In this document: piece after piece, positions 3,001 through 61,950 of the stretch
Layout of the letters: each line of letters starts with the position of its first letter
Numbering within the stretch: the stretch's first letter is position 1
Translations under genes and position numbers: made by a program
DNA from: Plumapathes pennacea
Taxonomy: Eukaryota > Cnidaria > Anthozoa > Antipatharia > Myriopathidae
Length of the DNA: 64,000 bases
Reading direction: 5' to 3'
NCBI GenBank assembly: GCA_964036295.1
Contig: OZ038464.1
Location: forward strand, 9,968,001 to 10,032,000
The notes under the pieces: generated by a model
What the model saw: only the letters and a program-made list of their open reading frames with translations
Told to the model about the DNA's origin: nothing
The model's database searches: none

Positions 3001-4208
3001 TTAAAGCACGCGCGACTTGTCACATAAAACTACTATTTGTTTATTTGGTTATGCGATGCAATGGTTACGAGACCTCGCATGTAGTCGAACTACATGTACA
3101 AACGTTATCCGGGCAACACTGATGAATTCATCGCCTTAACCGCCGGCGTAGAAAATCGGAGTAAAAGAGAGCGCTTCATAATGCAAACACAGCAATTGTT
3201 TTATAAGTTTCAAGCATACAATGACAACATCATACGATAAACGGGCTTTGCTTCGGCACAGTGAGAGTCAATCAATGAGAGATAGAACTAAGTAATTTTT
3301 ACAATCGAAATATGTCAGTGCGTAAATAAATTGATCCTTACGCGGAATAACGGCTCTTACAAAGCCACATCACTCACAAACAGTGGTTTCGAAATTATCT
3401 GATACCGGAGTAAATATGCAAGGACGGCGAAAACCTGTCATGTTCGAATTATAGTACCAGTTGCTTTAAGTTGGCCGTGATGCAAATTCGCGTTTAAACT
3501 TCACGTTCAAGGCATAGCTTCACGTTCGATCTAAGCGGCTTAACAGCAAATCGTATTTTTTTCAGCAAACTAGCGTATTTTTAAAACTGACGCCTTCTAA
3601 ATGCTTCGTTGTAAACGGTGTTTTAGCAACTCCAAACAGTGAGAAGCTCGCGCATAAACATAGCACACCCCCGAATACACCACCTTAGTCACTTTTGATT
3701 TTCTTCTTCCCGAAATAAGCAGCCTGTGTCGTTTCATTCAACGCTGAAGCCCTAAAAATGGCTTCGCGAGCGAGGTTAGAAGTCAAGCACGCAGCAATCT
3801 GAACACAGGAGATTTATATCGCTAAAATACATGTTCCTCGCTTGGAAAAAGTCTGCCAACTATTCAACCGACACTTGGGTTTCTAGAGAGGTGCACGTTC
3901 TGCGCTATGCCTTTAAACAACTTCAGTTCGCATGCAGCTGCCGCTTTCGCTTACAAGATGAACGGTCTTCCGTTTGTGGTATACACCGCTTGTTAACACT
4001 GTAACTCTCTACCACAACCCGATCAGAACCCGCTCCCTTATAATCGTCACCGATATCATCTACAAAACTTACTTCATCAGGTTAGAGTTGCGCGCCCGCT
4101 AAAAGAACACTGCCCGTGGTCTCATTTAGCCTGTTGCTAAGGCGCTTATATGATGGAGTGATACGCACTCATGCCAGGTTTTTAAGTCTGGTCTTCTGTT
4201 GTACTCAC
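1..4208 (-). other. Intron 1 of the K2P gene (partial), non-coding
   Basis: No K2P continuation (TYG filter end, TM2) was found on the minus strand here, so intron 1 is at least 4.2 kb. The stretch is AT-rich. It holds a copy of the dispersed repeat with the core ATACTG...ATATCTCTGGTGAGA near 283-400 and a two-copy tandem duplication at about 965-1190. A minus ORF of 78 codons at 1352-1588 starts with ATG but has no recognisable domain and is not called. Confidence 0.6.
965..1190. repeat. Two-copy tandem repeat, about 112-bp unit
   Basis: Both copies carry CTTTGCTAGA, then ACAACATTTCTTG, then TTTTTAGCACGCTAAG, a CTCGTCATAT block and CCTCTCTCGGGGAAAA. They differ at scattered bases, so this is an old local duplication in the intron. 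Confidence 0.75.
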
Positions 4209-4524
4209 CGATGGTCGTAACCACATTCCCAGCAAAGAAAAACGCGTTCATGAAGTCCCAGTCAATGATGAAATCTTGCTTCTTAATGTCGTATCCGAGA
4301 TCAACGGCTTCTTGTAGCTTCTCTAGAAACTTTTTCATGTCCGGCTTGCTTATGTTGTGTGTGGTCGTGAAATTCGCGATGACGGCCGAAAAATTCAACT
4401 TCTCTCGCTCGTGCGTTTCGTGAGGCTTTTCGACGCCCAGAAATAAACCGGCGCCCAGGAGAAGCCACACCAGAAATAGTAAGATTCGTATAATCAGCTT
4501 CGTAGCCTTGGATTCTGTCGCCAT
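4209..4524 (-). CDS. Two-pore-domain potassium channel (K2P/KCNK-like), first coding exon only
   Basis: This exon encodes 105 complete residues of a K2P potassium leak channel, a plasma-membrane protein whose two pore loops per subunit form the K+ filter as a dimer. A hydrophobic TM1 lies at residues 9-31. It is followed by an extracellular cap segment with three N-glycosylation sequons (N44, N51, N57). The first pore loop follows, ending WDFMNAFFFAGNVVTTI. The exon stops at a G|GTGAGT donor that splits the first glycine codon of the selectivity filter, a splice position I recall as typical of KCNK genes. ATG at 4524 is chosen because the frame has only a GTG further upstream. The exons with the rest of the filter, TM2-TM4 and pore loop 2 are not seen and must lie beyond the left edge. 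The pore sequence resembles the TREK/TALK branches, but the subfamily is not settled. Confidence 0.85.
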
Positions 4525-7411
4525 CACTTAGCCACTAGCCGACGCTAGCAACCCGATTTAAATTGCATAGTTCGGTCGCTCGATGCGAAAGGTGAAGATA
4601 TCATCTTGCAACCAGGCGCCTTGACTTAGCGATCTTGTGTGAATTCTGTTGGAGGAGAGCAGCGCGCGACGAACGAGTTAGGATTCTTTTGACAATACGG
4701 TAAAAATTCTGGCTTCGGCCTGTATGACCAAACACACCGCAACACCTGTTCTTCGGGGCATGCGCGCTTCGCCCCACCTTCGACCATGGTGCTCGCCTTC
4801 ATTAAAAGCAGCACATTCGCTAATTGCGATGAATGCCAAAAAAAAAAACTTCTCTGTCTCTCGCTTAAATTATTTTTATCTGACTCCCGGCCGTGCCTTG
4901 TGTTATTAACCACCGCAGGCAACTTTTCCCCGGTTGGTGTATTATTGGTGGCCCCGTGTTGCCGTGTGAGTGTTGTTTACACAAGCATGTGTGACGTCAC
5001 AGGTTATTCAGGCAAGAGCTTTTGTCAGCTGTCGTTAACATGAACTTATTTGAGTTCGGTTTGCGTTCCCTTCTCCAGACGCGATGAACAATCGATTCCA
5101 GCGAGTGATATCTTCACTTTTTTTGCTTTCAAAACGACCTTGTTGACTTTCGATTTTTTATTCCGCGCCAATCTAGCACCTTTAACATTATTTACTCGTT
5201 TGTAAAGCTCTCCCATGCATAGGCTTAAATGAAAACAGCAATGGCTGAATTATATTTAAGAGCGTCGTATTCTTATTAATTCGTCGTTTTTCTTGCTGTT
5301 TTAGCGATGGCTGCACATGTGTGTGGGGAAAATCTAAGTAACAATTAAGCACACGCGCACACTAGTTTTGAAGTTGTATTGCCAATTCTAGCGGACGCAG
5401 TTGCGGTTTTGTTGAATAAACATAAAATTTCGCTCTAACCTGGAACCAATTACCGTTTCTGACAAATTGGAGCACTTTCGCTAAAAAAATTGGCCCCGCG
5501 AATTACCTTAGTGAGTTTCGCGCGGCTGAACGCGAGCGGGAAAAAAAAATCCCCAATCAGACATCAATTATGGGGGACTTTTTTTCGGAAGAAGCTGTAG
5601 TATTTCGTAAGGTCTAGGGTGCATGCAGATCTGCGCACATGCATGCATGCATTATTAAGCTTGTTTTTCTACCTGTGTAGCTTTGTGTGACTACTTTATC
5701 ACAAAGATGTTTACATGGGTTCAGAGTTGATCAAATGCGCCTCAGCTCAACAGTCGCTTCCGTCGGCGCCAAAATTTCGACAGCGTAAAAAGCATCATTT
5801 ATTTCTCGACTCCAGTCGTAAGAGGACGGCAACAATGAAAGAATTATTCCCAAAATATCTTACTATTGAACTGCTTACTAGGTCTGGTTGCTATAGTGAC
5901 AGAGGCAAGCCAATACAATTTTGTTGCAGACACAAATGAGGCCTAATTTTTATGATGCGGTTGGTAAATGGTATTTTAATATCACAAAGGTGAAAAATAA
6001 AATTGGAAAGGTGGTTTTTCTTTTATATTCTTTTATTTTTGAAAGGCTGTAATTTTTCTCGTTTTCTTTGTTGACTTAAGGTCGGTTTTCACAAGAGAGT
6101 CGAGCACAAGGAGAACTGGAAAACTTTTCATCCTGGTGTTTGCGTCGAGCTAGTTTTTACAAGCGACTCCTTAATTCACGGCGACCACAAGCCGTTTTCC
6201 TTTCCTTAGTGTGCTTGTCCTTCTGTTGCGTCGGTTGTTTTTACATGAAGCATAAATCTTTTACCTGGCGCATATTCTGGCGTCGCTTGTGAAATCTGGG
6301 CTTTTCGTCAGTAGCAAGTATAAATTGAATAGTGCAGTTTATCATATTCAGCTTTGCACTAAAAATTGCAAAAAATGGATTGTTCCCAGTTTATGACCCT
6401 GTTCGGTCTAAAATATCCATTCTCAACTTCTACGATAACGACCAACATTCTCTTCAAACATGATATTCTGCATAGATTATGTACCTATTTTCAATAATGA
6501 TTTTAAATAACTATTGTATTTTTTTTCTACTTTGATGGTAATTTTAAGATTTTGTCAAAATAGACCTCTAGCAAAGTGCTAACTTTTTTAAGGCGTTACC
6601 ATAGGGAAATAAACCTTATCTGAATAACAAAACAAAAACGTATTTTGCCATTGATACGCGGAAAGTCCAATCAAGAAAACGAATTTAAAAGCCGCAGACA
6701 ATTGATGGGTTGTCAATATGAGGTTTTAGCTCAATTAGTAAAACCGATCTCGTGCAGTTTTCTTGTGAGACGCTTTCGACACGTTTAGGCTCCCAAGATT
6801 GTCTTGAGTATCATCTCTAAACAGCCGGATTTTCGTGGGCGAAAGCCGAACGGTCTCGGAAGCCAGGCCGCATATGACAGGCTAAAAAATCGCACCACTT
6901 AAATCGACCCTGGGTTTATTTGTCCGTGTTGTTGATTTGTTCGGTATAGTGTTAATCGACTATCAAATCTACAGACGCGATGCCAGGTCTTCTAGAGAGT
7001 TAATCGGATGCAAAAAAGACAAAGAAAAGCAAACACTTCCGCAGACTTTCCTCAGAGTTTCAGTCGGACAGTGGAAATGCTATAAAATGTGTATCTTAGA
7101 ACTTGTGGGTTTTGGTTTGTGGTTTTTAAGTGGGGGAGGGGAAGGCTGGTTCCTCAGTGTAAGGTTTGGCTGGGGCTTCACGGCTGAGCCACCGATATCA
7201 GTACAGTCATCACCGGCGTCTACGTATATGCCGGGTCATAGCTATGTCCAGTCTACAGTGATAACTTACTGCGAATTTTGAGACTGGAGGCCTGGGTTCA
7301 AAAAGCGATTATTCGCGCGCGCATAAATTGCACTCGGCTGTTTTTCCCGCGTCCTATTTCGAACGAGTGAAAATCCTGGCCAGTCCACATACCACTCTAT
7401 TTCGACAATTT
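4525..7411. other. Upstream of the K2P exon; no gene recognised
   Basis: The 5' leader and promoter of the K2P gene should lie just above 4524, but no TATA box or initiator can be defended. Short ORFs at 4626-4922, 5715-5939 and 6937-7281 have no recognisable domain and no splice-supported extension. A self-complementary GCATGCATGCATGCA run lies near 5639. Confidence 0.5.
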
Positions 7412-7565
7412 TGTGGCTTGGCATTTGCCAGTTCATTCAGGGAACTTTTGGCTTGGCATTTGCTTGTCCATTCAGGGAACTTTTGGCTTGGCATATGCAA
7501 GTTCATTTTGACAACCTGGCTTGGCATTCGCCAATCCATTTAAGGAACTAGCTTAATTGGCATGG
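7412..7565. repeat. Minisatellite, roughly 42-bp unit, about 3-4 copies
   Basis: The unit begins with GGCTTGGCATTTGC, continues with a TCCATTCAGGGAAC-like part, and recurs with drift at about 7419, 7450, 7487 and 7520. The ORFs reported on both strands here follow from the repeat. Confidence 0.75.
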
Positions 7566-10875: not shown

Positions 10876-11325
10876 GCGGTAGTGGTTAGTGGAGGACCAC
10901 ACTGTGATATTGTTGGCGATAATCGTGGTCATGATCACGTAACTGTGATGATTGACGAATACGTTTAAATGTGATGGCGACGATGATAATAACGGTCATA
11001 GGATGATAATGATAGAGCGGTTTTCGGATGACTGTCGAAAACCCAAACCAAAGGAATTACAGGACCAATCTCGAAGGCTGTGAGAAAACACTTCCTCGAC
11101 CAACCAGGAACTTGGTTTACGTTGCCAAGAGATCAGTGAAACGGTGCGAGGAAACTGCATTGCCACTTTCTTGCTTGTGTGAGCAAATCGCAATCGGGAT
11201 GCTGCCAACTTCTTTGAACCAGTCAAAAAGCGCAGCAAACGCAAAGCCGAAGCAATCACGACATTCTTCCGAAAACTTTTCGAAGATGATAACAATGATG
11301 GTTCATCCGATGATGGCAAAAATGG

Positions 11326-11792
<467 letters not shown>

Positions 11793-11853
11793 AACTTTGG
11801 TAATGATGAGGACTAGGAGGAGGACGATGATGGTGATGATAATGAAGAATCAA

Positions 11854-13978
11854 TTTGCATCATGGCCTCAATTGCAACTAGCAGAAATTTTTGAAGTATA
11901 TTTCACAAACTGTCCCAAACTAAGTCAGCCCAAAAGTGAATATAGTTGAACCCCTATTAAGCGGCCACCCCCTATTTAGTGGCTAGTTATCAAAGTCCTG
12001 CAACTATTGGCAGTGTAGTACTGTAGGACTTTCTGGATTCCGGATCCCGTATTCCACTATTGTGGACTTCTGGATTCAGGATTTCACTTAATTTCGGACT
12101 CCATAACCTGTATTACGGATTGAGAATTTCCTAGTAGATTCCACAATCCAAGAATTTCGTGACTTCCTGATTCCAGGAATTTCGTCTTATTCGGTGGTTA
12201 GTCCTTTTGAACTCAGTCTTTCGCCTGTGGAACTGGACGGGTTTTTCGTGGCTGGTTCCGCAGGCTAATCAGATCCCGTTTAGCGGCCGTTCAGTTTTGT
12301 AATCACGGTTCGTATGATTTACAGAAAGACGGAATCGGACTTCACTGATCCTCTTACCATTATTTATCTTATTTGCTAGTTGCTAAACTGACAGAGTTGG
12401 TGTCGGCTAGTCTATGAATCGTCATAGTAATATCGAAGCAAACACCCCTTCTGCGATATAATCATGCAGCAGTTTACCTCAAGGTGTCCCCCATTGTTTT
12501 GAGAAGGTTCTTCGAAACAATTTTTGTACCAGATGGGAACATCGGCTATTGGTACGTCGACATTGTTTAGGGAATTGAGGGATACTCATGTGTTTATTGC
12601 CTATGCCGACAGTGAGTCGAGAGTCGCCGACTGCAGTGTGCCAGACAAATCACTGTCTCACATGATCCGCAAGTTTTACCGTACCGTATATGGGCGAACT
12701 GCCAAAATGAAAAATAATCCTACTCAATGATGTCAAAGATCAAACGCTGTACATTGATTTCGTTTCTCGTCTTTTAAATTGACTTCAATCACGAAAATCT
12801 GATCTTCTGGCAACTGAATGGTGAACTCGTAATCTTACTTTTGAATTAAATAATATATTCTTACTTTTAACATTTGTAAACTACTTCGTCGGTCGCATAT
12901 ACGCAGTTGTGCCCGACATTCCATATGCCGCAATATACGGAAATAGCCTAAATTTTCCCTTTACAGCACACCCATATATGTGCCGCCCTAAAGGGTGTCA
13001 TTTTAAACGCTTTGATCTGGGACCTGAAGGGTGTACATTTTGTGTTTTTGGTCTGGGATAGGGTATGGATTTGTCTCTTTGACTTTTCATGGGGTGCGAT
13101 TTTGATGAAACAACAAATATAGGCTACGAATTTTGGACGGGAATGGAATATCGAAAATGTTGGTGTTTAATAGAGCCAGGGTTTTGGACCCTACATAACA
13201 CCCCAACCCAAACTTCTGAGGGAGAGTACCCCTGGCTTGCATCTTCATCTCAAATGTCTTTTTCTTGTGATTCGACTCTTGAAAGGCGAATTGTTTTATC
13301 TCTGTCTCATCCACAATTTGAGATTGAGAAGATATTGAACAAAATATATTGAAAATGACTTGACCCGACTAGAAGTGCCACCTCCACCAACCCACCTACA
13401 CGTTTACATAATTAACTGGTCCCCTCCCCCCTCAGGGTTCAACCGATAGCGGGTTCTTTTATCGCTGAAAAGCAATACACCCTTCCACCTGTCAGGTCAA
13501 ATTAATGAGTCCCACAATCATGGTAGAATATTCCTGATGTGAAATATAGCTACAAAAGTAGCTCGGTAACTTCATCCAGCCTTTTATGTAGGTCACGCGC
13601 GATTTTCAGTTATCAATCTGGAACGAGTAATTCCCTCTCCGCTCTAACTCTCCTGTCTCAGTGCTGTATTCGTTCATTTATTGTTTCATACTCTGGCCGG
13701 AAGCTTGGTTTTTTATTAAAATCATTGATAAATAGACCTTGGATAAATTACTACAACGAGGCATCTAGTTGTTGTTATACATGTAGTTCAAGCCAAAGGC
13801 TTTCAATTCTTGAATGTACCCAATAACTTCTGGGTATAATAAAAATAGTTTCCAACGGACTCTTGCACTTAAAAATGAACCCGGTGAAAATAATGTAGCT
13901 ACTGAGGCGGAAATTCAGCCTGCTCTCCTCGTGATAAAAGTCTGTAATGTTTTATCTTACTTGTGCATCAGCTTCATT
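11854..13978. other. Gene-free stretch with repeat remnants
   Basis: At about 11943-11990 there is a sequence like the pogo-type MITE end (TTGAACCCCTATTAAGCGGCC), but no matching right end was found. At 12975-13075 lies a (CCTGAA/GGTCTGGGATAGGGT)-like dispersed repeat that also occurs at 63455-63780. Short ORFs here have no recognisable domain. Confidence 0.5.
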
Positions 13979-31333: not shown

Positions 31334-33460
31334 TCAGCATCCACCACAGCCGCCGCAACCTCCGCATGCGCCGGATCTGTAACTCAAGTAGCTATTGGTT
31401 GGTACGGTGTTTGCGTAATACCCAGCAGCCACCACGAGGAGCAGGTCTTCGTTATCAATGGCGCGGGGCTTGTTCAATTTATTTCCAGTGGAAACAGCAG
31501 GGGCTGATGGGATTGAGATGTGCCTTAGAGGATGAGGTTGACACAGGAGATGAAGAACGGCCACAGAAATTCCCAGGGCAAGTCTCTCGGGTACGTCCTC
31601 ATCTGGAGCCGGGAATACGATAGTCCCCGTTCTGAGATCGACGTCGACATTTTTGTCTCCTGCGCATGTCACTTGGTACGTGAACCCGTCCCTTCGAACC
31701 GCCTGCCATCTCTGTGTTTTCTTGAGAAGCGAAAAAAACTTTATTTCTAAATGGCCTGGTTCTCCTTGTAAAGGGACAGCGTTTCCTTCATTCTCTTCGT
31801 CGTCTGGTTCTCGCGAAACGAAGCCTTTCCATTGGCCAACACAGATGCCCCAGTCTCTCTCGCCTCGTATTAACACGGCCCGCTCACCCTCTTCAAGAGT
31901 ACAGCACAAGCTCTCCTTAGCAACCTGGTCCTTGGATGGTAATACGTCGTTGCCTAGCAGATGGCCCGACCCTATGACTTTCTTGTTCAAGTCTAAGATC
32001 TCCACAGAAGAAAACATCAAGTTAGCCGAGTGCATCACACGATACGAGAAAGCTTCGATGTTACGATAATCAAATATCCGTTGAACAGACATTTCACACT
32101 CTAGCGATGTTCTTTCAGTTCCGGCAGGTGAAACAAACAACTTAGGGCAGCTCAACACGTCGAATGGTTTCTGAACTGGAGTGAAATGACGTTGGGCTTG
32201 GACTGCGAAGAAATAGCGACTCAGAGTTGGTGGGTAGACCCTAACCGTAAAGTTCACCACCTTACCATCTTTAAAAGTGATTGAATGTGTAGCCGAGCTA
32301 CCATAGGATACTGCGTCCAGTTTGTCAGTAAAGTAAATTCTAGCACTGTCGCAAGAAGGGGATTGACCAAAACAAGCCAAGAAACCACGTTGAGAAGTTT
32401 TAACTTGAATACAGTTATTGTACTCCGTGTTGAACTGGAACCTACAAATTGGTTTGTCACGCTTGTAAACTCCAAAAGGACCGTGAACTTTTTTCTTGCA
32501 GATAAATTGCCCGTTTATCACAGAAAACTCGACCACGTAGTCTTTACTTGTCTCCAAGTTTTCTATTTCGAAGTTCAGAAGTTCGACGTCGTAAGTCAGA
32601 GCTGCTACAGCCGAGTACTTCCCGACAGCGCGCGAGTGAATAGTCGGAAAGGGATCGGGAGGAATTCCCCGAAACATCGCTCCATTCGCAGGGAATGCCC
32701 AGCCAGCTTTCTTCCACAGGGATTTCGTTTCAGCTTGTGACGTAGTCAGCTTAGATCCCGGGCTTCGGTCATTGATAGAGTCATCGTGGTTAAGCACTAG
32801 GCCGAGCGACGCCAGCGAGTCTTCTCTATAATCCAGCGGATGAACCTGATGTGCATGCCAAATCAGATCAAAATCATAACACGGGACGAGGAGGGTTTCG
32901 GGATTACGCTTTTTGAGTAGAAAATGCTGCTTGTATCTCTCGGCCGCGGCTTTGAGAAACTTGGTATCACGATAATGAGGAAGAGATACTTGGTAAAAGA
33001 AAACATGCTGACGCTCGGATGCAGAAGCAATGTCATATTCAATCTTGCTCACATATTCTGGGCACATTCGGGGCTGCATTTTCAAGTTGACTTCGAACGG
33101 TTCTTTAGGATATAACTGTCGCCAAACAGCTCTCGCGTTGGCGAGTCCTTTCTCCCTCTCCTTCCCCACCATAAGTTGGTGATCCACTATCGTAGACACA
33201 ACGCTGTTGCAATCTTTCTCGTAGCACAGCGGTGCCAACATGTGAACATGCCACACCCAAGCGATGTCCAGCGGCGCCGCGATTTCGTCGGCGTCATTCT
33301 GTGCTGCTAGTGGTAACCAAAACAACTCGTATCTTCTAATGGCGTTCTTGATATGTGGGCCAGTGTACAATGATGGACGTTGGTCGATAAGTTCGAGAAA
33401 CTCGAGTTCTTTGAGGGCCGCTTGGACTAAATTCAGTGATATCTGGATTTCTCTTGACAT
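31334..33460 (-). CDS. GRDP-like (DUF1399) protein, paralogue 1, uninterrupted, 708 aa
   Basis: Glycine-rich domain-containing protein family (DUF1399), best known from plant GRDP1/2, which are tied to stress responses; the animal role is unknown. Two family hallmarks are clear: LDIAWVWHVHMLAP (W70-H71-x-H73) and DFDLIWHAHQVHP (W201-H202-x-H204), repeated W-H-x-H motifs that could bind metal. About 400 residues of beta-rich sequence follow, then a hydrophobic LALGISVAVLHLLCQP and a short Cys-Gly tail (ACGGCGGCGGC). The collagen-like segment of paralogues 2 and 3 is represented only by GEPG. ATG at 33460 lies nine bases after a CTTCTTCCTTTAG acceptor-like site, so a non-coding upstream exon is likely. 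The coding region has no intron, unlike the two paralogues, which carry one between R and Y of NAIRR-YELFW. Confidence 0.85.
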   Translation of the reverse strand: MSREIQISLNLVQAALKELEFLELIDQRPSLYTGPHIKNAIRRYELFWLPLAAQNDADEIAAPLDIAWVWHVHMLAPLCYEKDCNSVVSTIVDHQLMVGKEREKGLANARAVWRQLYPKEPFEVNLKMQPRMCPEYVSKIEYDIASASERQHVFFYQVSLPHYRDTKFLKAAAERYKQHFLLKKRNPETLLVPCYDFDLIWHAHQVHPLDYREDSLASLGLVLNHDDSINDRSPGSKLTTSQAETKSLWKKAGWAFPANGAMFRGIPPDPFPTIHSRAVGKYSAVAALTYDVELLNFEIENLETSKDYVVEFSVINGQFICKKKVHGPFGVYKRDKPICRFQFNTEYNNCIQVKTSQRGFLACFGQSPSCDSARIYFTDKLDAVSYGSSATHSITFKDGKVVNFTVRVYPPTLSRYFFAVQAQRHFTPVQKPFDVLSCPKLFVSPAGTERTSLECEMSVQRIFDYRNIEAFSYRVMHSANLMFSSVEILDLNKKVIGSGHLLGNDVLPSKDQVAKESLCCTLEEGERAVLIRGERDWGICVGQWKGFVSREPDDEENEGNAVPLQGEPGHLEIKFFSLLKKTQRWQAVRRDGFTYQVTCAGDKNVDVDLRTGTIVFPAPDEDVPERLALGISVAVLHLLCQPHPLRHISIPSAPAVSTGNKLNKPRAIDNEDLLLVVAAGYYANTVPTNSYLSYRSGACGGCGGCGGC

Positions 33461-40574: not shown

Positions 40575-43500
40575 TTAACATCCACCACCACCACCATCAC
40601 CACCACCACCACCATCACCACCACCCCCACCCCCGCCAACACTCCAACCACCACCACCACTACCACAACCACCGCAACCACCGCACCCACCACACCCACC
40701 ACATCCACCACAGCCACCACATCCTGCACATGCTCCACCAGACTCGTTTCTACTCTCCCTCACGTAGCTGTTGGTCGGTACAGTAGGAGCGAAGTAACCC
40801 GCGGCCACGATCAGAGTGAGACTGTCGTTTCTGATGGCACGAGGCAGAACCGATGCGCAGGCAGCCGGATAAGCAGCCGTCTGAGCACTCGTTGGGATAT
40901 ACGGCTGACAGAGAAGGTGTAGGACAGCCACTGAAAACCCCAGAGCCAAGTACTCCGGAACGTCGTCTATTTCTGGAGGTATGGTTATGCTTCCATTCTG
41001 CAGGTTGATCCCCATTCCCGAGTTCTTCTTTCCGGTGTAATACACGAACCCCTCTCTATTCATGCTATGCCATTTCTGTTTGTTCTTTTCAAGAGAGAAG
41101 TATTTCACTTCCAGATTTCCTGGCTGCCCAGGTTTTCCTGGTATTCCTTTGACTCCCCGCACCGGTTTGCGGAACCTTGATCCAGCTCTGCCCGGAATTC
41201 CAGCAATTCCTGGCACGCCTCTTACCATGCCATCCCACTTTCCGACGCAGATGGCCCAATCTTTTTGCCCGCGGATCAGCATGGCTCTCTCTCCAACAGT
41301 GCTTACCTCTAAAGTGCAGCACATTTTTTTTTTCTGAACCTGATCCGCAGACGGCAGGACGTTGCTACCAACCATGTGCGCCGTGGCGACGACATTACCA
41401 TAAACATCCAAGATTTCGACGGAGGAGAACATCGAGACTGCGGAATGCATGATGCGACAAGAAAACACTTCCTGCTGACGGTGGTCGACTATCTTATGCA
41501 CGGACATAAAAAATAATCCGCGACCTTGAGTGAGAACTTGGGGCGGAAGGAACAGCGTCGGGGAACTCAACACTTCAACTGCATTCTGAACTTCGGTAAA
41601 GTAACGCTGAGGGTGAACCGCGAAGCTGTAACGGCCGCGGGTGGGGGGCCGCGGTTTGGTCGTAAAACGAACGCGCTTCCCGTATTCAAATTCAACGGTG
41701 TGCGTGACAGGGGCGGGCACGGCGCTTCCATAAGGAACCGACTCCAAGTAACGGGAAAAGAGAAACGTTGACGTTTCCGGTGCGCCTGCAAGACAAGCGC
41801 AAAAACCTCCACTGCCCACTTGGGCTTCAACGCTGTTGTTATGTTCAGTGTTAAACGGAAATACACAAATTGGTCTGCTGCCTCCCTCACACGAACTCGA
41901 AGGTCCGCGGAGCTTTTTCTTGCAGACGCGTTCGCCGTTCACGACACGCAGCTTCACGGCATATTGCTTTCTCGTGGGGAGGTTTTCAACTTCCAAGCCC
42001 AGAAGCTCGACATCATAATTCAGCGAAGCGAGGTTGCGGTATCTATCGGCCGAGACGGACACGACTGGAAACGGAGGTATTCCCCTGAACATCGCTCCAT
42101 GTTCGGAGAAACTTTGACCGCTTGTCTCCCACAATCCTTTTGTCTCGTTTTGTGATGCAGACAGCTTTGAGCCTGGGCTGCGGTCGGTGACGGAATCGTC
42201 ATGATTAAGCACTTCGCCGAGCAACGCACGTGTGTCTTGTATGTAATCCAGCGGATAAACCTGGTGCGCATGCCAAATTAGATCAAAATCATAGCACGGG
42301 ACAAGGAATATGCCCGGACCAACCCGTTTCTTTAGCAGAAGGAACGTTTTGTACCGTTTAATAGCCGTCTTTAAAAATTTGCTGTCTCGATAATGAGGGA
42401 GAGACACTTGATAATAGAAAACTTGCTGTCTTGCAGAAGCAGATGTAATGTCATATTCGATTTTGCTCGAATACTCTTTGCATTCCACAGGGGGAGTTCC
42501 GAGGTCTACCTCGAAAGGTTCACCGGGATAAGAATAAGCCCAAGCCACTCTGGCCTTTTCCAAAGCTTTGTTTCTCGCGTCGCCCACCATTGGTCGGTGA
42601 TTCAGTACTCCAGAGACAATATTGTTGCAGTCTCTCTCATAGTGAAGCGGCGCCAGCATGTGTACATGCCACACCCACGCAATGTCCAGGGGAGCTGCGA
42701 GTTCTTTTGCCTCGTGCTGCGTTGCTAGTGGCAACCAGAACAGTTCGTACCTTTAAGAAAATAAGTGAATGCGCTCTTGAATACAATCTCCCTTAAAGGC
42801 ACACAGCTTCGGGACCAGTTCTAACTGTTCAACTGAAAGAGGTGTCCGCTTCATAAAGAGTTGACGTAGTCTGAGACAAGAAATCCATAACTTCACAACT
42901 GAACAAGAACGTTATATTGGCAGCCTCGACAATATCCCTTTATGCTAAACAGTGGCTCAATTGGTTTTATTGTACAGTCCCTGAAGGTTTTCCTTTGACC
43001 TGACTATATTGTCGCATGCAATGTTCAAGAAAGTTTGCATTTCTAGTGTTCTCTCTAAGGGGTATTAAACTTTTGCTGGCCTGAGGTGTCCCGCCTTACA
43101 GTGGTGTCAGTCTGCTTTGAGGGAGTTCACTGTATATATTTAACCCAAATTTTCCCTTTTATGATTGGCTGGTTGTTTGGATCACCAAAAGACCTCATCA
43201 GCCATGCAGTCCAATGTTTTTGGAACAACAACAACAGAATGCTGGTTTTTTGATGCCTAATAAATGGTACAAAGCGAAATCAATCTTCTGGATTTCCAAT
43301 TGCTTTCAATTCATGAGGGTCTCTGAAAATGGCAGATACATATATACTTATTATCCATCAAATATTCCTCTCCGTGTGATTGGTGGAATCGTGACCAAAT
43401 AACGTTTACTCGCGAGCAGACATAAGTCGATAATCCAACGGTTGGCGAACTGTCGCTAGTTGCTTGCGATAACAAACACAACAAATATATCCAGTCACCT

Positions 43501-45850
43501 ACTACAAATGGACACTGAGAAGAACACCAATCAGTGGTTGGAAAAGCAATGAGAAAGCACCAATTACGTTCGTAGTGAAAGGAAATACTTGAAAGATAAT
43601 AGAGACCACCTACCCTTTGCTTCCGAAATATGCATGGATATTTGTCCTTGGACATTATCAGTGTCCTCGGAACTGACGTTTTAAGCGTTAGCCCTTTGTC
43701 AGAGCAAACGTCAGCCACTGTTACTCTTACGGCGTTCCAGTACCTCGATCAGCTTTTAGTTAATACACCAACGTTTTTATCTCCACGTCGGTATCACACT
43801 GTCCCTCGGAAATATTTTCTTCTCGGTAGGAACAAACAGTTAATAGCTGTGGTTACACACAGCCCTTTTACCGTGGGTTAAGGTACTTTTACCACGGCAA
43901 ACACTTTCCGGATGTGTAACTGCAGTTTCCCAAGCTAAATTTCCCGAGGGTGATCTCCATGGATACATCAAAAAGAACAAAATGACACTTCCAGAGCAAG
44001 CGAGCTAAGGTTTTTTAATCCCTGGGCAAATAGGACCAATCAGCAAGCGCCGACTGACAGTTGAGGAATTCGGAAAATTTTACACAAACATTACACCAGA
44101 GTAATTTTGTTTTCAGTTTGCCGCAAATCAATCTGCGAATTAAGGTGCCTCTACCCTGGGTGCCAGAGATTTCTCGCTTTCGGAAGCTTTGAGCTGCACG
44201 GCCGCGTAGGGCTGGGGGCAAAACCACGGGTGAAGGAGGGCTGGGGCGAGGCGGAGCCAAGCAGAAGGAAAATTATGGCGAAATTTAGATGGTTTTATAA
44301 CCTTCGCTCTTCTGCTCCGACGATTTTCTGAAACTTGGAAGGTATGTATTAAGTCAATATAAACTGATTCCAATAATTTAACAAAAATATACTAGCAAAA
44401 TTTTTTACTGGGTGCAATTTTGTTCAAAAAATGTTGTCCACTTAAGCTATAATATCACTGAAAAGATTTTTTCCCAGTTAAATTGAATTCCATCATTTTA
44501 TTGCGGAGTAATAGCTGCAATGTTTCTTAAAGTTAGTTGCTTGCGATAGGAATCGCATTAAATTCAAAAAAGTTATGATCCAAAGTTTGTCATGGACGAG
44601 TGCACCAAATGAAACTCCGGAGGCACCTTAAGCTGTGGCCTCGGAAGAACCCAAACATTTCAAGGAGCTCCGGAAAGAGGTCCACACTCATAATCTCCTC
44701 GTAATCTTAGCACGAACAATTGGGTTGATGACACCAGCGAACAGCGTTGATAAAAGAGAACCAGTAGAATCGACAATAGACTCGCTACCTCTCTGGAACC
44801 TTCCATGAGTTTTGACAAATGTGTTTTAGTTGGCTGATTTCACGTTGGGAGTTATTTCCTGCATGACGTAAGCATCTCGGGTACCGGTATCCCAAGGTGA
44901 ATTTGCCGTGGTCAAATTTACCTTGGGATTGGTTAATACCACGGTGTGTGTAAACCACAGGTAATATCCTCGGTCAAATATCCATGCATACTGTATTTCC
45001 TGACCAAAAGCAGTTCAATTGTTTAGTGGCGCCTAACAGTTTTAGGACATTCCACGCATGATATATTGTGCATACACGCACTTGCCACGCTATTGCGTTG
45101 ACTACACGTATTCATAAACTTGCGATTGAATCAACGCAAATAAAAAGCGGTCAAAAACGTTTTGCAGCTCGTTTAACAGCATGTATTACACGCAGCAGAG
45201 TTTTATGTCGATGTCTCGTCTGAAGTACGTCGTTTGACTCGGGCAACGAAACTTTTACTTCGTTTCGAAAACCCACGCTTAGAATTTCATCCTGAATGCT
45301 CAGCTTGTATACGACTATTTAATCCTTTCCCTTGGGCTGCCTGCGCTTGACTCTAATTTACGGTCCATCAACAATTTTTAAAAAGAAATTCATTTGAAAT
45401 GCAAAGAGCTCCTCAATAAGTCATTTGGTAATCTTCCAAACCCAGAAACGCAGAAAACTTTAGAAAACAATCATCTGCATAACAAAAGGTAAGTTACACG
45501 CAGTAACGTATACTGCACTATGTGAGTGTAATAAGCACTACTTCACTATTTGAGTTAATGAGCTTTGGCGTGTATAACACACGTACGTGTAATGCACGTG
45601 CTTTCCACGCGTGCACATGTCCTAAAACTTTTAGGAGCCACTGTATATACGGTATATTTATTGACGAGGTGCGGTTCCTATCCCCCTCCCCGGCTGAGTA
45701 CTATATATGTGGTATTTACCTTCTTATTGCATTCTTTAGATGTGGACCACTGTACAAGCAGGGAAACTCATCCACAAGTTCCAGGAACTTGAGCTCGGTA
45801 AGAGCAGCTCTGGCCAAATCAACAGATATCTTGACGCCACGTGAAAACAT
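40575..45850 (-). CDS. GRDP-like (DUF1399) protein, paralogue 2, two exons, 768 aa
   Basis: Exon 1 is 45720-45850 (ATG at 45850; ends AAGAAG|GTAAAT). Exon 2 is 40575-42750, after a CTTAAAG acceptor. The join completes an Arg codon in NAIRR-YELFW. W-H-x-H motifs are at 71-78 (WHVHMLAP) and 203-210 (WHAHQVYP), as in paralogue 1. Residues 555-588 form a collagen-like insert of Gly-x-y triplets (GVPGIAGIPGRAGSR...GVKGIPGKPGQPG), broken by FRK PVR. A hydrophobic stretch LALGFSVAVLHLLC is near 646-660. The C terminus (716-768) is a run of Cys-Gly-Gly triplets, then Gly-Asp. The protein is near-identical to paralogue 3. The intron of about 2.97 kb is filled with repeats, including a TTAA-flanked MITE. 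Its role is unknown; the tail suggests Cys cross-linking or aggregation (inference). Confidence 0.85.
42751..45719 (-). other. Intron of GRDP-like gene 2
   Basis: Bounded by GTAAAT at 45719 and TTAAAG at 42751. It holds the TTAA-flanked MITE 44144-44627, a Penelope-tail-like segment (CGTTAGCCCTTTGTCAGAGC near 43690) and AT-rich sequence. Parts match the gene 3 intron (compare 43200-43400 with 58430-58640). Confidence 0.75.
44144..44627. mobile_element. TTAA-flanked MITE with a nested Mutator-like end
   Basis: GGTGCCTC on the left and GAGGCACC on the right are exact inverted ends, each flanked by TTAA (44140-44143 and 44628-44631), as for piggyBac-type insertions. Just inside the left end, from 44153, lies TACCCTGGGTGCCAGAGATT, one end of the Mutator-like MITE found complete at 16021-16162. 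Its partner end was not found, so the nested copy is truncated or diverged. Confidence 0.75.
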
Positions 45851-47463
45851 TGCTTACACTTTGGGTGATTGTTCACTCATGCCAAGGAAGAGCCAATAGT
45901 CATGCCTGAAATGCACTGGATTAGAACTTAACAAACAATACAGTTGTGAAATGAACCGAAATTTAAACATGCCAACTGCAATGCATGGTTGACAGCAAGA
46001 GATTGGATGGCAAGATGTTGACTTTTATGAACGCAGAAATTTTTCATAGACTTTAGACAATGACCAGCAATGATAATAAAGAAATTAATCATAGTGTAAA
46101 TATTCAAACAATAAGTGTGAATACAAACAATATATATTAGTAATCAGTATGATAAGTCAAGTCATGCTACGTCATGCCAAGTCTGCCACGTCATGCTATG
46201 TCATGCCAAGTCATGTACAGGAATAGAACTTATCAATGTTTCTGAACACCGTCTTTGAACCAAGAGAACCAAGATTCTGTGTTATACCGTAAATGCTCTA
46301 TAAACCTCAGCGGGGGGGGGGGGGGGGAGAGGAGGGGGGGAGCTTATTTGAAAAGATGAAATGACAACAAGAGGTTCTGTAGTCTTGGTCAACAAAATAC
46401 TGTAAAAGTTAGATGTGAGAAATGTAAAGTTAAAAATATATCACCAAGCATCTAATGCTTGTCAGTTGTCTTGTTTCTCTACTGATTTTGATGCTCAAAG
46501 TCAACAGGACGAAAATTTGGGGAGAGGGGGGGGTCTTATTACAAAATTTGACCTTGTAGATGAAGGGCTTGTTGGAGAGGGCGGGGGGGGGGCTTACAAG
46601 AGCATTTACACAGTAACAAGCTAAGGGTTATCATGAAATTTACTGTAGCTGTTTTCCAATTTAAAGGAAAGTACTATGACCTCATAACAGTAATTAAAAG
46701 TACTTTCTTCTGTTCTACAGCAATATTGACCTTAACTTTGAATTTGCTGGGCTACAAAATTGATAAATCCGCTGTGAAAAATATACGCTGAATAAACGTC
46801 CTGTTGTTCAAAGTAATTTTTAGTTCGTAAAGATTCGTCACAGCACTATCTAAGAAAAAGTCACCATGTAAACGTTGAAGCTCGTGTTTCTACAGTAGTG
46901 TGGATCATTGAGTTCATATATTGATAGCAATTTATTGTTCCTTGATATAAGACAATCCGATGCTGCAATCGATCCAAGCAATTATTCAGTCAACCAAAAC
47001 ATCGCTAGCTGTGTGAATTGATGTGAATTATTGACACTGCATGTCTTCAGTCAACGACGACTACCTTCCGTTTTTCGCAGAAGGGTGTGAAATTACGTTG
47101 AGTGTAAAACACGGCCCCACCAGCTCTGCTGAATTACTTACCGTGTATAAATGATACTTTACTCTCGCGTGCGACTTCAAATGTTTCTTTTGCAGGCTGT
47201 TGTCAGGACGTGGACGACATTTTGAGAAATTACGAAAGTTGTTCTTCTTCGTAAGAGACGATCAAAGCAATATAACTTCAGCAAAAACGGAAAAAAAGTT
47301 GAACAACTTAAGAATTGGCAGATTTACATAAGGAATGCGGAGCCGACACATTTTTCCTGGTTCCTCGCGTTGCCATCGCCGTCCGTTTACCTAAGCTCCC
47401 TAATCATAATCCGACTACAGCGGCTGTCTCCTGAGAATTACAGTTTAAAGTCAAGAAACTCAC

Positions 47464-55025: not shown

Positions 55026-58000
55026 TCAACCACCGCAACCACCCCCACAACCACCACCACAACCACCCCCACAACCACCACCATCACCACCACCATCACC
55101 ACCACCATCACCACCACTACCACAACCTCCGCAGCCCCCGCAACCACCACATCCGCCGCAGCCCCCACATCCGCCACATCCACCGCAGCCACCACATCCT
55201 GCACATGCTCCACCACACTCGTTTCTAGTCTCCCTCACGTAGCTGTTGGTCGGCACAGTAGTAGCAAAGTAACCCGCGGCCACGATCAGAGTGAGATCGT
55301 CGTTTTTGATGGCACGAGGCAGACCCGATGCGCCGGCAGCCGGATTGGCAGCCGTCTGAGCACTCTTTGGGAGATACGGCTGGCACAGAAGGTGTAGCAC
55401 AGCCACTGAAAACCCCAAGGCCAAGTACTCCGGGACGTCATCTATTTCTGGAGGCATGGCTATGCTTCCATTCTGCAGGTTGATCCCCATTCCCGAGCTC
55501 TTCTTTCCGGCGTAATACACCAATCCTTCTCTCTTCATGTTATGCCATTTCTGTTTGTTCTTTTCAAGAGAGAAGTATTTCACTTCCAGATTTCCTGGCT
55601 GCCCAGGTTTTCCTGGCGTTCCTTTGACTCCCGGCACCGGTTTGCGTCCCCTTGATCCAGCTGTGCCCCTGACTCCAGCCTTTCCTGGCACGCCTTTGAC
55701 CATGCCTTCCCACTTTCCGACGCAGATGGCCCAATCTTTTTGCCCGCGAATCAGCATGGCTCTCTCTCCAACCTTGCTTACTTCTAAAGTGCAGCACATT
55801 TCTTTGCTCTGAACCTGATCCGCAGACGGCAGGACGTTGTTACCAACCATGTGCGCGGAGGCGACGACATTACCATAAACATCCAAGATTTCGACGGAGG
55901 AGAACATCGAGACTGCGGAATGCATGACGCGACACGAAAACACTTCCTGCTGACGGTGGTTGACTATCTTATGCACGGACATAGAGAATGACCCACCACC
56001 TTGAGTGAGAACATGGGGCGGTAGGAACAGCGTCGGGGAACTCAACACTTCAACTGCATTCTGAACTTCGGTAAAGTATCGCTGAGGGCGAACCGCGAAG
56101 CTGTAACGGCCGCGCGTGGGGGGCCGCGGTTTGGTCGTAAAACGAACGCGCTTCGCGTTTTCAAATTCAACGGCGTGAGTGACGGGGGAGGGCATGGCGC
56201 TTCCATAAGGAACCGACTCCAAGTAACCGGAAAAGAAAAACGTCGACGTTTCCGGTGCGCCTGCAAGACAAGCGCAAAAACCTCCACTGCCCACTTGGAC
56301 TTCAATGCTGTTGTTATGTTCAGTGTTAAACGGAAATACACAAATCGCTCCGCTGTCTCCCTCACACGAACTCGAAAGTCCGCGGAGCTTTTTCTTGCAG
56401 AAGCGTTCGCCGTTCACGACACGCAGTTTCACGGCGTACTGCTTGCTCGTGGGGAGGTTTTCAACTTCCAAGCCCAGTAGCTCGACATCATAATTAAGCG
56501 AAGCGAGGTTGCGGTATCTATCGGAAGCCGAGGCGGAAACGACTGGAAACGGAGGTATTCCCCTGAACATCGCTCCATGTTCGGAGAAACTTCGGCCACT
56601 CGTTTCCCACAATACTTTTGTCTCGTTTTGTGATGCAGTCAGCTTTGAGCCTGGACTGCGGTCGGTGACGGAATCGTCATGATTGAGCACTCGGCCGAGC
56701 AACGTACGTGTGTCTTGTATGTAATCCAACGGATGAAGCTGGTGCGCATGCCAAATTAGGTCAAAGTCATAGCACGGGACAAGGAATATGCCCGGACCAA
56801 CCCGTTTCTTTAGCAGAAGGAACGTTTTGTACCGTTCAAGAGCCGTCTTTAAAAATTTGCTGTCTCGATAATGAGGGAGAGACACTTGATAATAGAAAAC
56901 TTGCTGTCTTGCAGAAGCAGATGTAATGTCATATTCGATTTTGCTCAAGTATTCTTTGCATTCTGCAGGGAGAGTTCCGAGGTCTACCTCAAAAGGTTCG
57001 CCGGGATAAGAATAAGCCCAAGCCACTCTGGCCTTTTCCAAAGCTTTGTTTCTCGCGTCGCCCACCATTGGTCGGTGATTCAGTACTCCAGAGACAATAT
57101 TGTTGCAGTCTCTCTCATAGTGAAGAGGCGCCAGCATGTGTACATGCCACACCCACGCGATGTCCAGGGGAGCTGCGAGTTCTTTTGCCTCGTGCTCCGT
57201 TGCTAATGGCAACCAGAACAGTTCGTACCTTTAAAAAAATGAATGAATACGCTTTTGAATACAGTCAACTCCCTCTAAGGCAGACACCCCCGGGACCAGT
57301 TCTAACTGTCCACCTCATACAGAGAGCTGATGTAATCTGAAACAAGAAATCCATAACTTCACAACTGAACGTCAAGAACTTTATATTTGCAGCCTTGACA
57401 ATTTCTTTCTTTATTTTATTTTTATTTAAATAAATATTTATACAGGAACATCTGATTTAGCATATATAGCTAGTTTAAACAGAGTCCTGTCTACGTTAAC
57501 AAACAGACAACTAAGTCACAGATAGAACAAATGACATACTTGACATAAATAAATAAGTGAAGGTAGATAAATGAAAAGCACACTAGAGCACTTATTGCTA
57601 AGATGGTAAATATTTAAAGTGACGTTTTGCCTGGATCTTGAACTCCTTAAGTGTATTTACTTCTCTTATATTAAGGGGTAGAGTATTGTAAGTGCTCGCC
57701 CCATTGAATCTAAAACTGCCCTGGTACTTAGTTGTTTTGTCTAGGGGCTGACGCAGTAGGTCACGGTGCCTGGTGGGGTAATCATGGACTTGGTGGGTCA
57801 CGGTGCCTGGTGGGGTAATCATGGACTTAGTGCACAAATTTAAATTCATTTAGCAGGTAGGCTGGCACCGTGCCATGTAGTGATTTATATACAAGGACGC
57901 ACTTTAGATAATCTCGATGCGCTTGACAATCTCATTTCATGCTGAACATTTGTTCAATTAATTCTACTGTACAGTCCCTGAAGGGTTTTCTCTGAGCTGA

Positions 58001-59217: not shown

Positions 59218-59404
59218 TGCTTATAAAATACTTTGGGTGATTGTTCACTAATGCCAAGGTGGAGCCAAGAGTCATGCCTGAAATACATTGAATTAGAACT
59301 CAACAAACAATACAGATATGAAATATATCAAAATTTAAACATGCCAACTGCAATGGATGGTTGACGGCAATAGATTGGATGACAAGTTGTTGACTTTTAT
59401 GAAT

Positions 59405-61445
59405 GGGTCATTCCACAGTATTTTGTATGTTGCGGAGAAGACATTTAGAGACATTCAGTATGCCACAGCTCGAAATCCAAATGTCACAGTAATAAAATTC
59501 TACCTTTTTCTTGTAGACATTTATTATAGCTATGCCCACTATGTTGCAATTTTCTGTAAGTTTTAACCATGGAAGACTACAGCAAGATAAGTGACTGTTG
59601 CGGAGAAGACTCAGAGAATTTGCTATTTTTGTTTTACAAAATCTAAGTGAAAAGTTCTCTGATTCTATGATGAATTCACAATTTCTTTTTGTTTTGTATT
59701 AAAGAGTGGTATATATATTTTAAATATATGACAAAAAAAATCAGCTGCATTTGTTCGATCATCAGAAAAACTGACCATATTTTGATGTGTCTCTGTTGCG
59801 GAGAAGACGTTGCGGAGAGGACATTTTTGTCCATGAACAAATAACACAAAAATATCATTGAATTTGACAAAGTGTGTTATGTTAAACAACTCTTATTAAC
59901 ATTCTAGAATATAAAACAGCTTTTAGTGAAACATATGGTGATAAATGTCAACAAAAACAAGGTCCTTTGATCAGACTAGCATGGTATTGAAAAAGAAAAG
60001 GGTCGTGGTCACATTTTTCAAGTTGATTTTGATATAGATAGACATTATTACTTCATTGTAGTTTTAATCATTGTATTTGGTGCATCAAGAACTGATGTTA
60101 CCAGAAACTCTGGCAAAAACTTATGAAATGCATAAACTTTAATGCTGACTCAGACCACAAAGCATTATGGGTAAAACCAAAAAATCCAGAATACTTGGCA
60201 AAAATACCCCCCAAAATAATTCTTGTCAAGTACACATAAATTCTTTGTTATTAACATATCCTATAATATATAACAGCTTTTAAAGAAACATACTATGCTG
60301 TTAAATGTCAACAATAACAAGGTCCTAATCACAGTAACTTCAAAACATTTCATTTCAAACTTGTTGCAACAATGTTGATTTCAACACAGCCATGTAAATA
60401 CTTGTACATGTTAATGTACAATGTTTGTACATATCTCATGTTTACTGAACAGCAACATAGTGTAGCAGTTTAGTGACAACTCTGCTTCCTTGAAAGCTTG
60501 AAAAACAGTTCCAAGTTCCTCCAGATCTGGAGTTTCAAAGGGACCATTGCCCTGCCATCGTACTGGGCCATAAAACACACAGGTGGCATGTACTTTATCA
60601 ATGTCATCTATCTGAGGCCAATCAAACATTTTGGCACCAACTCTGTGCAAGAACTTTGAATGTGGTGATAAAGTAATTTTTATTAGCAAGTGCTTTCCCA
60701 AATGCTGCTTGAGTAGACAGAATGCCTTGTACTAATGTTATCTTCCTGTAGTAATGTTATCTTCCTCTCAAACTTTTAACTAACGCAGTCTAAGTACACT
60801 GCTGCACACTTCAAAATATACTAAAAGCCCTGGAAAGTACAATTTACCTAACATGAGTTTATTTTAGAATTTATTTAGTTTATAATGAGTTTATTTTAAA
60901 TCAACTTCTAAGCAATGTGTCCTCTCCGCAACAAAAAGAAAACATCCCTAAATCATTAAGGTGATGAGCTGAAGAATATCTGAACACAATAAAACATACC
61001 TCCTGTTATAAATTAGAAGTTATCAAACTGTGTACCTAATATGATTATCTGGTCATCCATAGCATAAACTTTTAGGTGTCAAAATGTTGCCGAGAGGACA
61101 TTTAGCAAATGGACAGTCTCTAGCACAGGACTCTGGGTAAAACATCGTCCTGTAACAACTGTTCTGTAAACCGCATCAGTAATAGTTTATGTCCTGATAA
61201 CTTTTGTGAGGTTTCAGTTTTTCATTTGTTTTTAAATAATAAATTGATTTGTCCTCTCTGCAACGGCCATTTTTACTTTTTTCATGTTTGATTATAATTT
61301 ATGCATCATTATCAACATGCTACCCCCATAAATCACATCATAAAGTAAACTATCAACACCAAGCTACAACTTAAAGGACATTTTAGGTTTGATTCAAAAC
61401 ATTTAGAAAACTGATATCCATGTCCAAAATACTGTGGAATGACCC
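59405..61445. mobile_element. 2041-bp DNA transposon, GGGTCATTCC ends, GAAT target duplication
   Basis: The two ends are perfect inverted copies for 21 bp, starting GGGTCATTCCACAGTATTTT. GAAT stands directly outside each end (59401-59404 and 61446-61449). The paralogous gene-2 module has the uninterrupted site TTTTATGAACGCAGAAA at 46024-46040, proving an insertion with 4-bp duplication. Inside are seven copies of a 14-bp motif GTTGCGGAGA(A/G)GAC: direct at 59429, 59597, 59795, 59809 and 61086; reversed at 60919 and 61251. A minus ORF at 60411-60701 is the only sizeable frame. The superfamily is unknown; 4-bp duplications occur in several DNA transposon groups. Confidence 0.9.
60411..60701 (-). 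CDS. 96-codon ORF inside the 2041-bp transposon
   Basis: ATG-initiated frame with a plausible protein-like composition (FDWPQIDDIDKVHATCVFYG, then a PDLEELGTVFQAFKEAE helix). No DDE residues or zinc finger are seen. It may be the remnant of the transposase C terminus or a captured exon. I do not recognise the family. Confidence 0.35.
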   Translation of the reverse strand: MGKHLLIKITLSPHSKFLHRVGAKMFDWPQIDDIDKVHATCVFYGPVRWQGNGPFETPDLEELGTVFQAFKEAELSLNCYTMLLFSKHEICTNIVH

Positions 61446-61950
61446 GAATGCAGAAATTATTCATAGACTTCAGACAATGACCAGCAATGATATAAATAAA
61501 TTAGCTATAGTGTGAATATTCAATATTACAGTATTGTAAGTGTGAATACAAACAATTATTAGTAATCAGTATGACGATAATACCCTGCAAGTCATGTACA
61601 GGAATAGAACTCATGGATACTTATGAGCACTGTCTTTGAACCAAAAGAACCAAGATTCTATGATGTTATACCATAAATGCTCTATAAGCCTCACAGGGGT
61701 TAATAATTGACCTTGTACAGGGGCCGGCTTATTTAAAAAGATGAGATGACAACAAAAGGTACTGTATTCTTGGGAAAAATGCAAAAGTAAAAAACAAAAA
61801 TCACCAAGCACCCAATGTGTATCACTGTGTCTTGTTTCTCTACTATATTTGGTGCTCAAAGTCAACAGGACAAAAACTGGGGGAGGGACAGGGGCTTATT
61901 TCAACAACTGACCACGGGGAGGGGGGGGGGGGGCACTCAAAGGACTTTTG

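Follow-up and report, generated by a model that had tools for sequence, protein, structure and literature searches.

Here we report that the 2041-bp element at positions 59405-61445 of a 64-kb window (the 64,000-nucleotide stretch of Plumapathes pennacea DNA analysed as a whole) is a DNA transposon, strongly supported as a member of a young multicopy family, designated family A. In our interpretation, which we consider highly probable, it is a non-autonomous cut-and-paste transposon that arose by internal deletion and depends for its movement in trans on a protein of longer relatives in the same genome; the 14-bp motifs arrayed inside it are predicted binding sites of an element-encoded protein. 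Indirect support for such putative binding comes from a sister family in the same genome, family B, in which the motif has changed in concert at fixed spacing. The features that define the insertion in the window are the following.

59401-59404, no strand: target-site duplication GAAT, left (flank comparison)
59405-61445, plus strand: non-autonomous DNA transposon of family A, 2041 bp (ends, genome matches and duplications)
59405-59425, plus strand: terminal inverted repeat, left, 21 bp (self-comparison of the element)
61425-61445, minus strand: terminal inverted repeat, right, 21 bp (self-comparison of the element)
61446-61449, no strand: target-site duplication GAAT, right (flank comparison)
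46023-46039, plus strand: empty target site in a paralogous module (string search and joined-flank alignment)

The two ends, which in family A start with GGGTCATTCC, are complementary over all 21 nucleotides (100%), and GAAT is present on both flanks of the element, as an earlier sequence-only reading had described. The same reading had claimed an exact empty site in the paralogue. The uninterrupted site TTTTATGAACGCAGAAA does occur there, once in the window, at 46023-46039, and the flanks joined without the element align through the junction to 45738-46315 with 80% identity over 595 columns, including 62 gaps; the match is not exact to the letter, since the paralogue has GAAC in place of the duplicated GAAT, a difference of one base. 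The element also contains an internal duplication of about 79 bp, the two parts of which (59893-59966 and 60248-60326) are 84% identical.

In its own genome (290 Mb in 24 contigs), the element was searched for with the best 40 of 148 candidates scored, and 39 of the 41 listed matches, the window copy counted, are full length at 95-100% identity. The 20-bp end, allowing up to two mismatches, occurs 357 times in the genome versus 16 times for the reversed pattern, and a 38-bp family A left end, which takes in the first motif besides the end itself, has 86 occurrences at up to three mismatches, with none for the control. Among 100 listed 20-bp ends, 16 were matched neither to a left end of A or B nor to the opposite end of such a copy, in a comparison that used 86 left ends of A and 56 of the 70 known for B; eight of these 16 are copies or fragments of A or B by other comparisons. 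Seventeen full-length A copies differ from their own consensus by 1.1% on average, a mean age biased towards young by the inclusion of the eight best genome matches, and older A-like copies exist (L016, at 87-88%).

A 4-bp duplication flanks 25 of the 26 copies with two recognisable ends (21 A, four B and a large one carrying a nested element), and none has a longer abutting repeat; the sole copy without a duplication, L036, is rearranged and 1165 bp long. Left out of this count were four of 20 loci whose second end was not recognisable (L023, L026, L028 and L029), L037, which repeats L020, and the single ends L009-L016. AT-rich sequences predominate among the 25 duplications, which do not include TTAA. 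The sequence-only reading, which had called the element a DNA transposon, had held that a lack of further copies would weaken the claim and had suggested comparing target duplications, is thus upheld: dozens of near-identical copies share their ends, and inverted ends together with a target duplication in many dispersed copies are what defines cut-and-paste DNA transposons. The family is real and young, and its cis structure is unusual.

Several known superfamilies can be set aside on the duplications. Harbinger elements make 3-bp duplications, Tc1/mariner duplicates TA, hAT 8 bp, P 7-8 bp and Mutator 9 bp, and duplications of exactly 4 bp exclude all five. The absence of TTAA among the 25 duplications likewise excludes piggyBac and the TTAA-inserting Kolobok elements. 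The coral CMITEs, as described in excerpts of PMC2872659, resemble A and B in being non-autonomous and in having an internal feature conserved between families; unlike them, they are about 100 bp long, with TTAA duplications and piggyBac-type ends.

The internal structure of family A is dominated by a 14-bp motif. A scan of the window for GTTGCGGAGARGAC at up to one mismatch yielded seven sites, five perfect and two with one mismatch, all of them within the element, compared to 0.01 expected by chance and at most one in any of 100 shuffles.

59429-59442, plus strand: motif site 1 (motif scan)
59597-59610, plus strand: motif site 2, 168 bp after site 1 (motif scan)
59795-59808, plus strand: motif site 3, 198 bp after site 2 (motif scan)
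59809-59822, plus strand: motif site 4, abutting site 3 (motif scan)
60919-60932, minus strand: motif site, its consensus neighbour 20 bp away being deleted in the window copy (motif scan)
61086-61099, plus strand: motif site with one mismatch, 167 bp further than the 60919 site (motif scan)
61251-61264, minus strand: motif site with one mismatch, in its CpG, 165 bp further and 181 bp from the right end (motif scan)

Both the seven copies and the abutting pair at 59795 and 59809 had been noticed from the letters, and the scan recovered each of them. The family A consensus contains eight sites, all GTTGCGGAGA(A/G)GAC, of which the left four are direct and the right four comprise three reversed sites and a direct one; of two neighbouring right-hand sites, the window copy has lost one through a 20-bp deletion, and the same site is absent from 5 of the 17 full-length A copies. 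In the genome as a whole, the motif GTTRCGGAGRRGAM has 880 matches versus 27 for the reversed control.

Family B is about 1.2 kb long, and its left end has 70 matches in the genome, with none for the control. Its ends are nearly those of A, the right ends being identical over all 21 bases and the left ends agreeing at 20 of 21. The B consensus, built from four sequences, also has eight sites, seven of which read exactly GTTACGGAGGGGAA, a spelling that differs from that of A at fixed positions of the corresponding sites. Counted from zero at the left end, sites start at 24, 192, 390 and 404 in A and at 25, 193 and 391 in B, so that site 1 lies one base further from the end in B, and the intervals of 168 and 198 bp are equal. 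On the right, the distances to the end are 533, 513, 346 and 181 in both families, which gives the same intervals of 20, 167 and 165 bp followed by 181 bp to the right end, and B has an extra site at 550. Site orientations agree between A and B. The abutting fourth left site is present in one of the four B copies used (L020), as well as at C1:8714764-8714778, and is missing from the B consensus.

The sequence around these sites has diverged strongly. Outside the motifs and ends, gapped identity between A and B reaches 70% in the left part and 62% in the right part, and the between-site intervals compared ungapped are 35-45% identical versus 27-30% for shuffles; for two of the five intervals the gapped alignment is weak (z 1.4 and 2.3). 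With divergence of this extent between sites, drift would be expected to shift the spacing. As judged from corresponding sites that differ alike, distances that are kept and intervals that are only 35-45% identical, the motif has thus changed in concert between the two families, with its spacing kept fixed. Such an array would fit a binding code of an element-encoded protein under a geometric constraint.

Two other explanations of the array were weighed. The uniform spelling within each family could result from homogenisation by gene conversion or slippage, with no binding function, and the local arrangement offers material for it, as two sites abut, two others lie 20 bp apart, and some copies lose a site by deletion between them. 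However, homogenisation would not hold sites 150-200 bp apart equidistant across families so diverged between them, and we consider this explanation very improbable. Less remote, though still unlikely, is the possibility that a host factor acting in expression or silencing binds the array, and that the transposase needs the 21-bp ends alone. Each motif spelling, in A as in B, holds one CpG, and in the A copies CpG columns diverge by 8.7% (32 columns) versus 0.9% elsewhere (2025 columns); this fast decay, like that of methylated sites, is compatible with a host factor and suggests that the motif sites are methylated in the genome, with methylation as a possible regulator. A host factor does not readily explain why corresponding, equally spaced sites are spelled differently in A and B within one genome.

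No special conservation of the motif columns was found within copies of either family, their divergence being 0.0146 versus 0.0103 outside in A and 0.0357 versus 0.0184 outside in B. CpG decay can explain the higher values of the motif columns, which give no support to binding of the motif.

Under the preferred reading, in which a protein of the elements recognises the array, the transposase would cut at the 21-bp ends, and insertion would leave the 4-bp duplication. A DNA-binding protein encoded by the element, either the transposase or a partner, would bind the 14-bp motifs and gather both ends; the fixed spacing suggests that the bound proteins may touch one another in a set geometry, and the CpG in each motif may allow methylation to tune binding.

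The nearest parallel to such a way of working is found in the CACTA transposons, as far as the excerpted account in PMC2613891 describes them. CACTA elements (En/Spm and Tgm, with TNPA-type motifs) likewise combine short conserved ends with a subterminal motif in direct and inverted orientation, their motif spelling differs between two subfamilies in one genome, and their deletion derivatives are moved in trans, as is proposed here for A (PMC2613891). The subterminal motifs of soybean Tgm1 and the Tgmt family differ by 6 base changes, for which a co-evolving DNA-binding protein was suggested (PMC2613891). The motif in both orientations is a resemblance of working and not of membership: A ends start with GGGTCATTCC instead of CACTA or CAC, and the duplication is 4 bp in 25 of 26 copies instead of 3 bp, which together exclude A from CACTA. 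The conservation of site spacing between A and B is a further difference, not being reported in the CACTA descriptions excerpted from PMC2613891. Alike in their ends and site geometry but unlike in motif spelling, the young families A and B offer a natural experiment on the joint change of a transposase and its putative internal binding code, as well as on spacing constraint. The question of joint change was already raised by the CACTA work; what would be new, if it holds, is the equal spacing across strongly diverged sequence.

A candidate source of the protein was found through an open reading frame inside the window element.

60414-60731, minus strand: 106-aa open frame, probable remnant of a longer protein (open reading frame list and genome search)

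This frame had no match in Pfam, PHROGs or PDB, nor among viral contigs. When 54 of its residues were searched against the genome, 147 matches were obtained; many are located at A copies, and five fall in frames of 392-1043 aa. Two of these, of 1018 and 718 aa, are 51% identical to the residues of the 106-aa frame (E 1.3e-11 each), and each match is located 837 bp inward of a B-type left end, its relative strand being that of the A remnant; a third, in a 392-aa frame, is weak (E 0.004, 24 residues) and lies 898 bp inside another B-type left end. By chance, 0.002 such neighbours of B-type left ends would be expected. The 1018-aa frame (around C1:42213583) is enclosed by a pair of B-type left ends in inverted orientation, which delimit an interval of 6,304 bp (C1:42208263-42214566) that represents either one long element or two neighbours. 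The two other long frames near B-type ends lie around C11:2281548 and C7:5532824. The remaining two frames, of 992 aa (C3:6140827, 61% identity) and 1043 aa (C3:17507288, 47% identity), are near no listed A- or B-type left end, and the 86 listed A-type left ends are all more than 20 kb away from each of the five. On this comparison, A and B seem to have arisen by deletion from elements that encode a putative transposase of about 1000 aa, a view better supported for B than for A, and the window element seems to be without a working enzyme of its own. The identity of the long frame as a transposase is our inference, as are binding of the motif and the cooperative and methylation-sensitive nature of this binding.

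We tentatively considered assigning A and B to the Sola superfamily, and rate this as possible, though somewhat more apt to fail than to hold. Sola and Sola2 make 4-bp target duplications (excerpts of PMC10741241 and PMC3627910), and duplications of this length that are variable and mostly AT-rich are common to Sola and to A and B; open frames of about 1000 aa also agree with Sola. However, the 4-bp duplication is not specific to Sola, and Sola ends, as described there, are so variable that the ends decide nothing. The partial descriptions of Sola in PMC10741241 and PMC3627910 do not mention a motif array, unlike what is seen in A and B. Kolobok-related elements fit as well: according to excerpts of PMC9587614, KolobokP insertions have 3-4 or 4-5-bp duplications, a range of 3-5 bp that includes the length found here, and Kolobok ends are 5'-RR, as are those of A. 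Kolobok otherwise inserts at TTAA, in contrast to all 25 duplications of A and B, and KolobokP carries terminal repeats called LTDRs (PMC9587614), whereas no long terminal repeat was found in A. A literature search for the end or motif strings returned no relevant title among the matches listed.

A bolder proposal, which we regard as distinctly unlikely, is that A and B are what can be seen of a transposon lineage whose protein, of about 1000 aa, falls outside every described superfamily and depends for its action on eight sites in a rigid, phased arrangement. The element, possibly in the form of chromatin, would then fold into one defined complex, and the protein and its 14-bp code would have changed together at least once in this genome. 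The main motif intervals, of 165-198 bp, are about the length of nucleosomal DNA.

A candidate for the autonomous parent of A and B was an element of 11,123 bp (C1:12239571-12250693) that combines B-type ends and a 4-bp duplication with a transposase of about 1000 aa in two frames. Its ends and duplication fit such a role; however, the transposase belongs to a separate element nested in a B copy, which occupies positions 318-7462, is bounded by separate inverted repeats (about 930 bp, 87% identity) and is inserted at TTAA. We therefore rejected this candidate and see next to no chance that it is the parent. In a related TTAA family, TTAA precedes 16 of 17 exact ends. L041 (C1:17764700-17773700) and L039-L040 are likewise elements that insert at TTAA, and their inverted repeats are long, about 0.6-0.9 kb. 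They carry a frame of 161 aa upstream of one for a protein of about 1000 aa, with 51% identity between two of the elements. The protein of this family has 98 genome matches listed, with 93 of 524 candidates scored; neither Pfam nor NCBIfam gave a match that reached a curated cut-off, and there was none in viral or prokaryote contigs. Three such proteins that were compared share D517, D601 and D639 (L041 numbering), and the stretches around these residues look by eye like a DDD nuclease core; the family may be Sola3- or Kolobok-like.

Among the 70 B left-end matches, 11 carry a variant end (GGGTCATTCTACAGTATTTGGTAATG...), and seven of these lie within 25 kb of a contig start (C7:19842 and 22731; C9:20950 and 23738; C10:19686; C11:16449; C12:19795); the variant may be part of a subtelomeric repeat.

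Elsewhere in the window, the minus strand holds three frames that resemble one another and have glycine-rich tails, at 31334-33460 (708 aa), 40575-42734 (719 aa) and 55026-57212 (728 aa). The 719- and 728-aa frames appear by eye to be close copies, and the empty target site is located in the module of the 719-aa frame (40575-42734). A long trinucleotide repeat at 10996-11949 shows a strong GC skew; its translation consists of histidine, aspartate or methionine runs, according to the frame.
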